Source of the DNA: Fidelibacterota bacterium
GTDB lineage: Bacteria > Fidelibacterota > Marinisomatia > SCGC-AAA003-L08 > D37C17
Direction of reading: 5' to 3'
DNA length: 64,000 bases
NCBI GenBank assembly: GCA_002717625.1
Contig: PBEF01000015.1
Span: 25,052-89,051, forward strand
A program made the position numbers and the translations under genes. The notes under the pieces are model-generated. The model saw only the letters and a program-made list of their open reading frames with translations. It was not told where the DNA came from and ran no database searches. Shown here piece by piece: positions 4,121-10,887 of the stretch (position 1 is the stretch's first letter; the number at the start of each line of letters is the position of its first letter).

Positions 4121-4147
4121 AAAAAAGCTCCATAAAGGAGCTTTTTT
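4121..4147. terminator. Bidirectional intrinsic terminator between cysK and the small-peptide unit
   Basis: aaaaaagctcc-ataaa-ggagctttttt: perfect 11-bp stem with A-run and T-run. Confidence 0.88.
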
Positions 4148-4202
4148 ACTTTTTATCCGACGAGAGATTAAAAAACTATTTAAATAACCAAATTCTAAGT
4201 AG

Positions 4203-4415
4203 TTATTTTTTCCACCATGTTACAACCAATACTAAGGCAACCAATCCTGCTAATCCTCCATCGCCAATATCATTCATCATTTTTCCGATTCCTGCTATTA
4301 CACCAAATATATCATTGTATAATATTCCTACAAGTATCCCAAGAACGATAAGAGCTTTAAGTAAATCAGTAAAATCGTTTAACCAAGTAGTGATTGTTCC
4401 CATTGCTTTTTTCAT
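4203..4415 (-). CDS. 70-aa small membrane protein (paralog A)
   Basis: Hydrophobic, two likely TM segments, ends GGLAGLVALVLVVTWWKK; SD AGGAGG 4 nt before ATG; paralogous to the adjacent 70-aa ORF. Confidence 0.75.
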   Translation of the reverse strand: MKKAMGTITTWLNDFTDLLKALIVLGILVGILYNDIFGVIAGIGKMMNDIGDGGLAGLVALVLVVTWWKK

Positions 4416-4432
4416 CTGGCCTCCTAGTTAGT

Positions 4433-4491
4433 TTGTAAGAAGTGTAGTTTATGGGCAATCAAATGATTGCCCATCAAACATATTCTTACAA
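4433..4491 (-). repeat. Long intergenic stem-loop between the two small membrane protein genes
   Basis: Outer arms TTGTAAGAA (4433-4441)/TTCTTACAA (4483-4491) and inner perfect 10-bp arms ATGGGCAATC (4451-4460)/GATTGCCCAT (4465-4474) with AAAT loop. Confidence 0.85.
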
Positions 4492-4499
4492 GCGGTTGA

Positions 4500-4712
4500 T
4501 TAGTCCATAAAAGAAACAAATACGCATAGAGCTAAAAGCCCTGCTAATCCACCACCTAAGAACATACCTACAAGGTTCATAATTCCACCTATTACGTTAG
4601 GTATGCCTGTTGGCCACACAATTGCAGCAAAAACAAAGAATACAATAACAGTCTTTAACAATCCAACGATTCCACCTAACCAACCGTTAACATTAGATAA
4701 AGCATTTTTCAT
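4500..4712 (-). CDS. 70-aa small membrane protein (paralog B)
   Basis: Start re-assigned from the track (4754) to ATG at 4712, which has AAGGAG 7 nt upstream; gives MKNALSNVNGWLGG...GGGLAGLLALCVFVSFMD, exactly 70 aa like its neighbour. Confidence 0.75.
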   Translation of the reverse strand: MKNALSNVNGWLGGIVGLLKTVIVFFVFAAIVWPTGIPNVIGGIMNLVGMFLGGGLAGLLALCVFVSFMD

Positions 4713-4774
4713 TGTCATTCTCCTTAACTTATTTAAAATACCTAAAAGACTCATGTAGCTTTTAGATTTTAAAA

Positions 4775-4799
4775 TAAGGAATAAAACATCTATTCCTTA
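4775..4799 (-). other. Leader hairpin upstream of small membrane protein genes
   Basis: TAAGGAATA-AAACATC-TATTCCTTA, perfect 9-bp inverted repeat between promoter and first gene. Confidence 0.6.
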
Positions 4800-4811
4800 C
4801 TTCGGGCGTAA

Positions 4812-4839
4812 CTTATAAATAATATTATATTAGTGTCAA
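4812..4839 (-). promoter_or_regulatory. Sigma70-type promoter for the small membrane protein unit
   Basis: Minus strand TTGACA (4839-4834), 16-nt spacer, TATAAG (4817-4812). Confidence 0.6.
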
Positions 4840-4946
4840 CATTTTATTTAAAGTAACACTTTAAGTTAATTTAAAGTATTTTTTTAGATATTCTTATTTT
4901 AAATTATCGTTGTATAATCTTTTTAAAAAAATCAAATTTAATTATT

Positions 4947-5672
4947 ATGAAGGTAATTTGTGCAGGATGGGGTAGAACTGGTACCCGAAGTCTTAAATAT
5001 GCTTTAGAGCGCTTAACTGGACAGCCCTCTTATCATATGCAAAATATTTTATTAAATAAGAAGGATGCTACATTATGGCATGATTTGATTTTTAATAAAC
5101 AAAATACTATAGATTGGGAAAAAATTTATAAAGGATATGGAGCTTGTTTAGATTTTCCTAGTTGTAATTATTACAAAAATTTGATGGATTATTATCCTGA
5201 TGCTAAAGTGATTCTTACTATTAGGGATGATAAAAGTTGGATTAAAAGTTGGAATGTATTAAATAATCAAATTCTTAAAAGCTTTACATTTAGGTTTTTA
5301 GCGCGCATACCATATACTTCATTTAAATTACAAAAAGATATTCACAATAAAATGATCTTAGGTAAAGAAGGTGCTTTTAGAGGTGCTAAAACTGATTTTG
5401 ATAGAATGAAAGAGTTTAATCGATGGAATCAATCTGTTATCGATTATGTCCCATCTGATAGGCTCTTAATTTATCAAGTAAAAGATGGTTGGGGGCCCTT
5501 ATGCCAATTTTTGAAGACTTCAGTTCCAGATATTTCTTTTCCATATAAAAATAAAACAAAGAATATGGGTCATATGTCAAGATTTATTAATAGTATATTT
5601 GTGATATTTATTTTATTGATTATTGCAATTATTATATCTTCTGTTTTCTTTGGAGTGCAATATTTTGGATAA
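4947..5672 (+). CDS. Sulfotransferase-family protein with C-terminal TM helix
   Basis: N-terminal ICAGWGRTGTRSLKYAL PAPS-binding-like motif; VILTIRDDKSWIKSW; hydrophobic C-terminus. Confidence 0.75.
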   Translation: MKVICAGWGRTGTRSLKYALERLTGQPSYHMQNILLNKKDATLWHDLIFNKQNTIDWEKIYKGYGACLDFPSCNYYKNLMDYYPDAKVILTIRDDKSWIKSWNVLNNQILKSFTFRFLARIPYTSFKLQKDIHNKMILGKEGAFRGAKTDFDRMKEFNRWNQSVIDYVPSDRLLIYQVKDGWGPLCQFLKTSVPDISFPYKNKTKNMGHMSRFINSIFVIFILLIIAIIISSVFFGVQYFG

Positions 5673-8506: not shown

Positions 8507-9403
8507 ATGGATGTTACATATCAAGATTATTTATCGTCATCAGTTATTAAAAAAATCAGTAATATTGCGTTAAGAGCCAAGCTTGTAGTTGAAGGTTTTA
8601 TTATAGGTTTACATAAAAGTCCATATCATGGTTTTTCAGTTGAATTTTCAGAACATAGACCATATAGTTTTGGAGATGAAATTAAATATATAGATTGGAA
8701 ATTATTAGCAAAAACAGATAAGCTTTATATTAAGCAGTTTGAAGAAGAAACAAATTTAAATTGTCATATTCTTTTTGATACAAGTGCATCAATGCAATAT
8801 GGTTCAGGTGAAATTCAAAAATTTGATTATGCTCAAACATTATGTGCTTCTTTAAGTTATATGATGATTAAACAACAAGATGCTGTTGGCTTAACTACAT
8901 TTGATACAAAAATAAATATCTCAATTCCTCCAAAATCTAGACCTAGTCATTTAAATATTCTATTAAATACTTTGCATCATTCTAAGGTTCAAGGAGAGAC
9001 AAAAATTTCTAATATTTTACATTCTTTAGCAGAATCAATGAAAAAAAGAGGTTTGATTATATTGATTTCAGATCTTTTTGATGATCAGGAAGATGTAATA
9101 AAAGGATTAAGGCATTTTAGATATAAGGGACATGAAATTATTGTTTTTCATATTATGGATGATAAAGAGATTTCATTGGATTTTAATGAAAGTGTTAATT
9201 TTATTGATTTAGAAAATAATGATTCAATGAAGACTGACCCTAGACAGATTAAATCAGCATATCAAAAAGCTTATTCAAATTTTTGTAATCAATATAAAAA
9301 TGAATGCAGCAAAAATAATATTGATTATGTTCCTGTAAATACATCAGATTCATTAGATAAATCTTTAATTGAATATTTAATTAAAAGGACTAAGGTTGTT
9401 TAA
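8507..9403 (+). CDS. DUF58 domain-containing protein
   Basis: FSEHRPYSFGDEIKYIDWKLLAKTDKLYIKQFEEE; adjacent to MoxR as is typical. Confidence 0.9.
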   Translation: MDVTYQDYLSSSVIKKISNIALRAKLVVEGFIIGLHKSPYHGFSVEFSEHRPYSFGDEIKYIDWKLLAKTDKLYIKQFEEETNLNCHILFDTSASMQYGSGEIQKFDYAQTLCASLSYMMIKQQDAVGLTTFDTKINISIPPKSRPSHLNILLNTLHHSKVQGETKISNILHSLAESMKKRGLIILISDLFDDQEDVIKGLRHFRYKGHEIIVFHIMDDKEISLDFNESVNFIDLENNDSMKTDPRQIKSAYQKAYSNFCNQYKNECSKNNIDYVPVNTSDSLDKSLIEYLIKRTKVV

Positions 9404-10887
9404 TTATTTAGTATTATTTGGATAATCAAGATTACATCTTGGATATTAATAACGTTATCATTATTAATATCTCCACTCCAAAGTTCTTGATTATTTGCTT
9501 CATAATTATTTAAAATGATATTAATTAATATGATGATATCTAAGACATCTATAACTGAATCTTGATTTATATCACCTAGTATTAGTTCATTTCCTATAAA
9601 AATATTTTGATTGATTGTTTCATGTGGTAAAAAATTTATAGATATCGTGTCTTGTTCATTAATAGAAAAAAGATGTTCTCCCTCTGGAAAGCCTATTATG
9701 AATTCACCATTATTGTTTGAATAATAGGTTTTATTATTTAATAATGATCTAATTGAAGCGTTAGTTAAAGGTATATTGTTGTTGAAATAGATATTCCCGC
9801 TTACCCATCCTGCATTTATTTCATTGAATTCTAATATATATAATCCATTTTGCATATCACTTGCATAAACATAATTGTTGTTTGTAAATGGAAATGCTCC
9901 CCAACATCCATAAAAACCGCTGCCATCATTTTGGGGATATGTATCATAGGCAGCTACTTCTACAGGGTAGCTAGGATTAAATATATCTACAATTTTTAAT
10001 CCTGTTGTATAGTGAGAAATATAAAGAAAGTTATCCTGAATGTGAACATTGTGTGCTAAATTATTTTCTCCTAAATATTCACTTAATAATGTGATATTGT
10101 CTAAACTAGAAATATCCCATATTTTAATTGTCATATTATCGGTTTCTTCAGTTGTTACTAATATATCTTCAGTATCATTTAACCATGCATTATGTGCATA
10201 TCCTTCACAAGGGATAGTCGCGAGTTGAATAATATTATCTAAGTTATTTATATCATAAATTCCAAATTGGTTGCTCCATCCTTCTGATACATATGCTATA
10301 TTGTTTCTAGTATATATATCATGACAGTTTGCTGCTAAGCTACCAAATGTTCCACTGTAAACTGGTGAAGATGGATTAGGGTTTAAGTTAGCTATATGAA
10401 TATTATCTCCAGTTTGATGCTCAATAAATACATATCCTGATGAGTCAATCCAAAGATTATGAGATTGTGCTATATAGTTATAAGTTTCTAATTGTATTGG
10501 AGGATTATAGGGTAATGGTGATAAATCAACAATTTGCATTCCTACATCGCCTCCATACATTTCATTAACTATATATAAGTAATCACCAAAAGTTTTATAA
10601 TCTCTATGAAAGTAATAATCTCCAGTTGAAGGCCCAATAATATTAGCTACTTCATTATAAGTATTAGAATTTGATGAAATATCAATGATTGAAGTCCCAT
10701 ATTGATAGCCTACAATTGCATATTCTATACCAGTTTCATCTGTATATCCCCATACATCTGATACTCCAAAATTATTTGATGCATTTTCAAATTCAATATT
10801 ATGAATTAAATCAACATTGTAATTAATGGTTTGACAGATAATAAAATGCAGTAAAAATAATATGATCGATATTAATCTAACAGTCCC
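9400..10887 (-). CDS. LVIVD-repeat / choice-of-anchor-B-like protein with C-terminal dockerin-like module; N-terminus extends beyond listed ATG
   Basis: LVIVD-type repeats (LKIVDIFNPSYPVEVA), C-terminal GDINQDSVIDVLDII...GDINNDNVINIQDVI. Frame stays open upstream of 10560 and encodes a signal peptide (SIILFLLHFIICQ), without ATG/GTG/TTG. The 5' end is approximate. Confidence 0.75.
   Translation of the reverse strand, partial: GTVRLISIILFLLHFIICQTINYNVDLIHNIEFENASNNFGVSDVWGYTDETGIEYAIVGYQYGTSIIDISSNSNTYNEVANIIGPSTGDYYFHRDYKTFGDYLYIVNEMYGGDVGMQIVDLSPLPYNPPIQLETYNYIAQSHNLWIDSSGYVFIEHQTGDNIHIANLNPNPSSPVYSGTFGSLAANCHDIYTRNNIAYVSEGWSNQFGIYDINNLDNIIQLATIPCEGYAHNAWLNDTEDILVTTEETDNMTIKIWDISSLDNITLLSEYLGENNLAHNVHIQDNFLYISHYTTGLKIVDIFNPSYPVEVAAYDTYPQNDGSGFYGCWGAFPFTNNNYVYASDMQNGLYILEFNEINAGWVSGNIYFNNNIPLTNASIRSLLNNKTYYSNNNGEFIIGFPEGEHLFSINEQDTISINFLPHETINQNIFIGNELILGDINQDSVIDVLDIIILINIILNNYEANNQELWSGDINNDNVINIQDVILIIQIILNN

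Follow-up and report, generated by a model that had tools for sequence, protein, structure and literature searches.

The closest described design is that of PorA/PorH from Corynebacterium, in which two short alpha-helical peptides that lack a signal sequence, encoded by closely spaced genes that are thought to be duplicates, form one hetero-oligomeric channel of the cell envelope (PMC3792995). The two peptides comprise 40–57 aa and belong to the mycolate outer membrane of Actinobacteria (PMC3792995). Other small membrane proteins are comparable in part, i.e. AcrZ and similar proteins, phage holins with two transmembrane (TM) helices, and the TrbC/VirB2 pilins (PF04956) of type IV secretion systems.

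Here, we describe a unit of two small genes, termed A and B, from SAR406/Marinimicrobia, an abundant uncultured marine phylum with a hardly known cell envelope. The unit lies in a stretch of DNA of 64,000 nt that was analysed as a whole (the window). A-B resembles PorA/PorH in having two small putative subunits, adjacent genes, and no signal peptide in either product, as judged from the sequence alone. The resemblance is one of design only. The sole indication of homology was a match of the PorH model NF033938 to a phage member with an E value of 0.14, which is not significant, and A-B was thus not filed as a member of that group.

Layout of the A-B unit and structure of its message

The unit (window 4121-4839, minus strand) consists of two tandem, paralogous ORFs of 70 aa on one predicted transcript. 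The promoter, the two leader hairpins, the two 70-aa ORFs with Shine-Dalgarno (SD) motifs, and the terminator that a preliminary description had listed were all confirmed in the sequence. Two elements absent from that description were found, i.e. a palindrome upstream of the promoter (4864-4848) and a hairpin between the two cistrons (4491-4433). In the direction of transcription, the features are as follows:

4848..4864, minus strand: 17-bp palindromic operator TTAAAGTGTTACTTTAA (family consensus TTAAAGTAATACTTTAA), 8 bp 5′ of the −35 element
4834..4839, minus strand: −35 element TTGACA, from the sequence; its position relative to the operator is conserved
4812..4817, minus strand: −10 element TATAAG, with a 16-bp spacer; most loci of the family have the form xATAAGTT
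4775..4799, minus strand: leader hairpin 1, 9-bp stem TAAGGAATA/TATTCCTTA, from the sequence and RNA folding
4742..4765, minus strand: leader hairpin 2, CTAAAAG/CTTTTAG; a hairpin of different sequence recurs there in many relatives
4719..4725, minus strand: SD motif of ORF A, AAGGAGA, from the sequence
4500..4712, minus strand: ORF A, 70 aa, MKNALSNVNGWLGG..., predicted two-helix membrane peptide (conservation, AlphaFold2, dN/dS)
4433..4491, minus strand: intercistronic hairpin (TTGTAAGAA...TGGGCAATC/GATTGCCCA...TTCTTACAA), supported by its folding energy; the SD motif of B is free downstream of it
4420..4425, minus strand: SD motif of ORF B, AGGAGG, from the sequence
4203..4415, minus strand: ORF B, 70 aa, MKKAMGTITTWLND...WWKK, predicted two-helix membrane peptide (conservation, AlphaFold2, dN/dS)
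4121..4147, minus strand: intrinsic terminator AAAAAAGCTCC/GGAGCTTTTTT, from the sequence

Further ATG codons in frame with ORF A are present upstream at 4718 and 4754, but 4712 is the likely start because the homologues begin with MK or MA. Divergent from A-B is a gene (window 4947-5672, plus strand) for a sulfotransferase (PF17784) that carries an extra transmembrane helix at its C-terminus. Elsewhere in the window (9400-10560, minus strand), an ORF ends in a dockerin-like repeat (DINQDSVIDVLDIIILINIIL), as judged by eye.

The whole A-B unit folds far better than shuffled sequences (z = −4.4). The gap between A and B has a mean z value of −3.4 in 50 relatives, 80% of them being below −2, and reaches −5.7 at the locus studied here. 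The stretch 3′ of B has a mean of −4.1, with z < −2 in 83% of the relatives, and the leader has a mean of −1.9, with z < −2 in 51% of 53 loci. The starts of the coding regions, which served as controls, have values of about 0. The sequences of the hairpins vary widely among genera. Sites that stabilise or process a message, and so fix the proportions of its two products, are usually built in this way, as a stem that separates the cistrons and has no run of U residues. By this analogy, the intercistronic hairpin would probably serve to stabilise or process the message and thereby set the A:B ratio.

The unit itself gave only sub-threshold matches to Rfam, and none of the known RNA elements reached the gathering score in the leaders of the strongly diverged “D” type of A-B, which is present in families f5, f14, and f19. 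In these families (loci L099-L104), the 100–200 bases before A form long 5′ leaders that have little in common, except that several contain the motif CTCGGAGC. It is possible that the leaders with CTCGGAGC represent a regulatory RNA element.

Distribution, evolution and predicted fold of the two peptides

Within the same GTDB family, 21 of 23 genomes contain relatives of A and B, nearly always as two genes side by side. Across the phylum, 141 of 245 Neomarinimicrobiota genomes contain relatives according to a broad profile (140 of 245 with the first profile), and the usual state is one adjacent A-B pair per genome. An undescribed family of small proteins is present in most genomes of one SAR406 class. 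A precedes B in the loci that were read, including those of the D type, and in one locus of family f20 (L096, 14-1094) the whole unit is duplicated head-to-tail, i.e. A-B-A-B. The named relatives stem from metagenome-assembled genomes (MAGs) of Candidatus Neomarinimicrobiota (SAR406) and from two MAGs, TMED6 and TMED198, that bear no label other than “bacterium”. All matches from one scan of genome contigs beyond the phylum, performed with a strict pattern, belonged to Neomarinimicrobiota or to marine MAGs that match this phylum.

A and B are homologous to one another (hhalign E value of 1.5e-20 in a profile comparison). In a protein tree, A occupies one side of a branch (support 76/99) and B is nearly a clade, and therefore the duplication appears to be old; the tree is rough, as it is based on about 70 columns, and the long branch of one phage row (L194) is meaningless because this row is in the wrong frame. 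For pairs with measurable dS, dN/dS values of 0.04–0.2 were obtained, revealing purifying selection on both A and B, far from the value near 1 that would have spoken against conserved peptides. The tandem homologues throughout the phylum, the dN/dS values, and the folding of the unit exceed chance expectation, and A-B is a unit of real, conserved genes that are kept as a pair.

AlphaFold2 predicted a hairpin of two long helices for B (residues 2-32 and 39-69; mean pLDDT 82.5, pTM 0.49) and, with less certainty, a similar two-helix hairpin for A (pLDDT 73.6). Together with hydropathy, the models suggest two TM helices in each peptide of about 70 aa. In the broad A/B alignment, conservation is highest at two glycines and a leucine, which form a G-x-x-G-L motif in the second helix. 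Searches of Pfam, NCBIfam, PHROGs, and the PDB with A and B yielded zero matches above threshold, the fold of the B model had no match in the PDB or BFVD, and no literature on A-B-like proteins in Marinimicrobia was found. As judged by every library searched, A and B are a new protein family. The preliminary description had inferred small membrane proteins that are strongly expressed and work as a pair, and this is supported by the phylum-wide pairing, the purifying selection, the predicted hairpins, and the sound promoter, SD motifs, RNA hairpins, and terminator.

Below the thresholds, the profile similarity of A to TrbC raises the question of a type IV secretion pilin. Eight of 28 A proteins match TrbC (best E value of 1.9e-4, all below the curated cut-off), and a two-helix hairpin is common to A and the TrbC/VirB2 pilins. 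However, these pilins need a type IV secretion system, and none is present in these genomes: VirB4/TrbE was found in 0 of the 23 genomes of the family, while the control was positive in Caulobacter, the TrbC model gave nothing over its cut-off in the family genomes, and no conjugation genes surround A-B. The absence of VirB4 and the low scores of TrbC led us to reject a pilin function as extremely improbable.

The preliminary description had also proposed a two-component pore, which A-B may possibly be, as well as bacteriocin-like peptides or a toxin-like pair. The peptides are indeed short, hydrophobic, and paired, but they occur phylum-wide, mostly as one pair per genome, are encoded in a transcription unit of their own, and are under purifying selection. 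Genes for immunity, export, or an antitoxin do not recur beside A-B, and the operator is common to porin genes and a regulator gene (see below). We thus regard a bacteriocin or a toxin-like pair as very improbable. A two-peptide bacteriocin was rejected since the sequence contains no double-glycine leader and immunity or export genes do not recur, and a toxin-antitoxin pair was rejected since such systems have dissimilar partners and a patchy distribution, whereas A and B are similar paralogues found throughout the phylum.

The genomic neighbours of A-B differ from family to family. Recurring neighbours are an upstream BI-1-like gene (several genera), cysK, yajC-def-fmt, and amidase-murI-folC-rho. 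Each of them represents the local synteny of some families, and a conserved neighbour was thus rejected as a functional clue. In f14, f15, and f19 (L091, L099-L102, L104, L107), A-B lies upstream of a series of yajC-like, def-like, and fmt-like genes.

An operator common to A-B, porin genes and merR

A 17-bp palindrome, TTAAAGTNNNACTTTAA, is located 5′ of A-B in 20 of the 20 loci examined in f1, the GTDB family of this genome, if the three middle bases of the consensus are free to vary (18 exact, two as a 15-bp core), and it usually ends 8 bp before the −35 element. The exact pattern was found 56 times in 23 genomes, compared to 5 times for the reversed control. Sites with two mismatches in the source genome showed no enrichment over the reversed control (40 versus 97), and therefore the analysis was confined to sites with zero or one mismatch. 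We disregarded exact matches within coding genes as due to chance or codon usage, e.g. an invariant one in an unrelated 211-aa ORF of genus g3.

The source genome contains three exact sites, which belong to A-B, to a 124-aa gene of the MerR family (PF13411), and to a gene for an outer-membrane-protein-like product, at which the spacing between operator and promoter is the same as at A-B. In 10 genomes of five genera, the operator is situated 12–27 bp before the start codon of merR, and palindromes of this type are also found 5′ of merR in family f16, which belongs to the same class. In a porin-like outer-membrane family, an operator with at most one change precedes 10 of 11 genes at positions −170 to −249 (p ≤ 0.007 each). 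The members of this family were assigned as porin-like from a signal peptide and a beta-barrel-like sequence; they have no Pfam match above cut-off. The operator also precedes A-B in one locus of family f4, and in f2 and f4 the gene immediately 3′ of A-B encodes a member of the same porin family. A-B of families f16 and f18 lacks this operator; in the respective loci (L071-L092, L105, L106), the A-B promoter has another conserved form, AAATATTG-N17/18-TAAATT, and no palindrome. Tandem operators, one exact and one with one change, are present in the source genome before a gene for a 173-aa outer-membrane-protein-like product (L133, 1467-1517).

A-B, the porin genes, and merR have the operator in common and therefore seem to constitute one regulon in this family, and their co-regulation is strongly supported by the distribution of the sites. 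As in known MerR regulons, the regulator gene and its presumed targets would be linked by one operator, and the MerR protein is most likely the binder, because the operator sits at merR itself. Classical MerR sites lie within the spacer of 19–20 bp between −35 and −10. In contrast, the operator of A-B is located 8 bp 5′ of the −35 element, so the binder could also be a different factor. The positions appear activator-like at A-B, i.e. 5′ of −35, and repressor-like at merR, i.e. just before the start codon; MerR would thus activate A-B and repress its own gene. The operator, the candidate regulator, and the candidate targets (A-B, porins, and merR) form a set that is amenable to tests in a laboratory organism.

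The porin regulon would fit equally well if A and B, similar to AcrZ or KdpF, acted as accessory subunits of a larger transporter or assembly machine in the inner membrane or stabilised it, with the porins and A-B being parts of a shared nutrient-uptake programme. Size, topology, and an amphipathic N-terminal stretch agree with this, and A/B would share with AcrZ-like proteins a tiny helical form in the inner membrane and a link to envelope transport. However, AcrZ has a single TM helix and occurs in single copy, its sub-threshold match to A/B is not significant (E value of about 1), no transporter gene is a conserved neighbour in 60 loci, and two paralogous subunits would be unusual for such a role. 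An accessory function is thus possible, although unlikely. The regulon also bears on the idea that A and B are abundant proteins that shape the membrane or pack its lipids as a structural pair, without a role in transport. The G-x-x-G-L motif, a Gly-rich helix-packing motif kept in every member, and the signals for strong expression are compatible with it, but alone it leaves both the porin operator and a porin operon in phages unexplained, and we consider it quite improbable.

Phage copies and a proposed role in envelope permeability

An IMG/VR contig with T4-type gp55 and gp25 genes encodes a protein that is 40% identical to B. Further scans revealed homologues of A/B on about 28 contigs from at least two T4-like groups. 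In six contigs, the gene order is porin-like outer-membrane protein, A/B, phoH. Phage and host members of A/B are homologous (hhalign E value of 2.5e-20), and no relationship was detectable between the phage and host porins. A tblastn search of named phages and plasmids gave no convincing relative.

The carriage by phages, together with an Amidase_3 gene (N-acetylmuramoyl-L-alanine amidase) that lies directly or two genes 3′ of A-B in several families, including f13, f16, and f18 (L093-L095, L071-L090), is the reason why a holin-like role was retained as an alternative. A-B would then control the passage or activity of a cell-wall amidase, and the phage copies would serve lysis. Phage holins with two TM helices are indeed similar in length (about 70 aa), topology, and presence in T4-like phages. 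In contrast to holins, no endolysin or other lysis gene was seen beside the phage copies, the neighbours of which are porin/phoH or gp55/baseplate genes, and A-B appears to belong to a conserved chromosomal porin regulon. Neighbours in other families are on the yajC or cysK side, and the distribution resembles that of housekeeping genes. A holin-like role is therefore of similarly low probability as membrane shaping.

We tentatively prefer the reading that A-B is a two-subunit membrane complex involved in envelope permeability, because there are three independent links to porins: the shared operator, the position of porin genes next to A-B in further host families, and the operon of the phages. 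The activity of the complex could be that of a pore, of a transporter partner, or of a membrane organiser. Operator sharing and phage linkage are direct observations. A and B would be the two subunits of an abundant complex of two-helix hairpins within the programme of Neomarinimicrobiota for the outer membrane and its permeability. The palindrome 5′ of the A-B promoter and of the porin genes would be bound by a regulator, for which the autoregulated MerR-type protein is the best candidate, so that A-B and porins would be made together. T4-like marine phages encode their own porin together with A/B, presumably keeping or altering the envelope traffic of the host during infection.

A bolder version of the permeability reading, which we judge to be clearly unlikely, is that A and B assemble into a hetero-oligomeric pore or gate of alpha-helices, the inner partner of the SAR406 outer-membrane porins, and thereby a new two-component permeability system. 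The phage module of porin and A/B might then take over the uptake of the host, perhaps that of phosphate, given the adjoining phoH.

The porin-linked phage copies point to auxiliary genes of a new, envelope-related kind in T4-like viruses of the sea, and phage A/B genes could possibly serve as a host marker for these viruses. The copies are not uniform in context: one contig of 168.8 kb (G245) contains two members, one linked to the porin and one beside gp55, another phage contig has two members within 2 kb, and one T4-like lineage carries an A/B gene that has no porin beside it.
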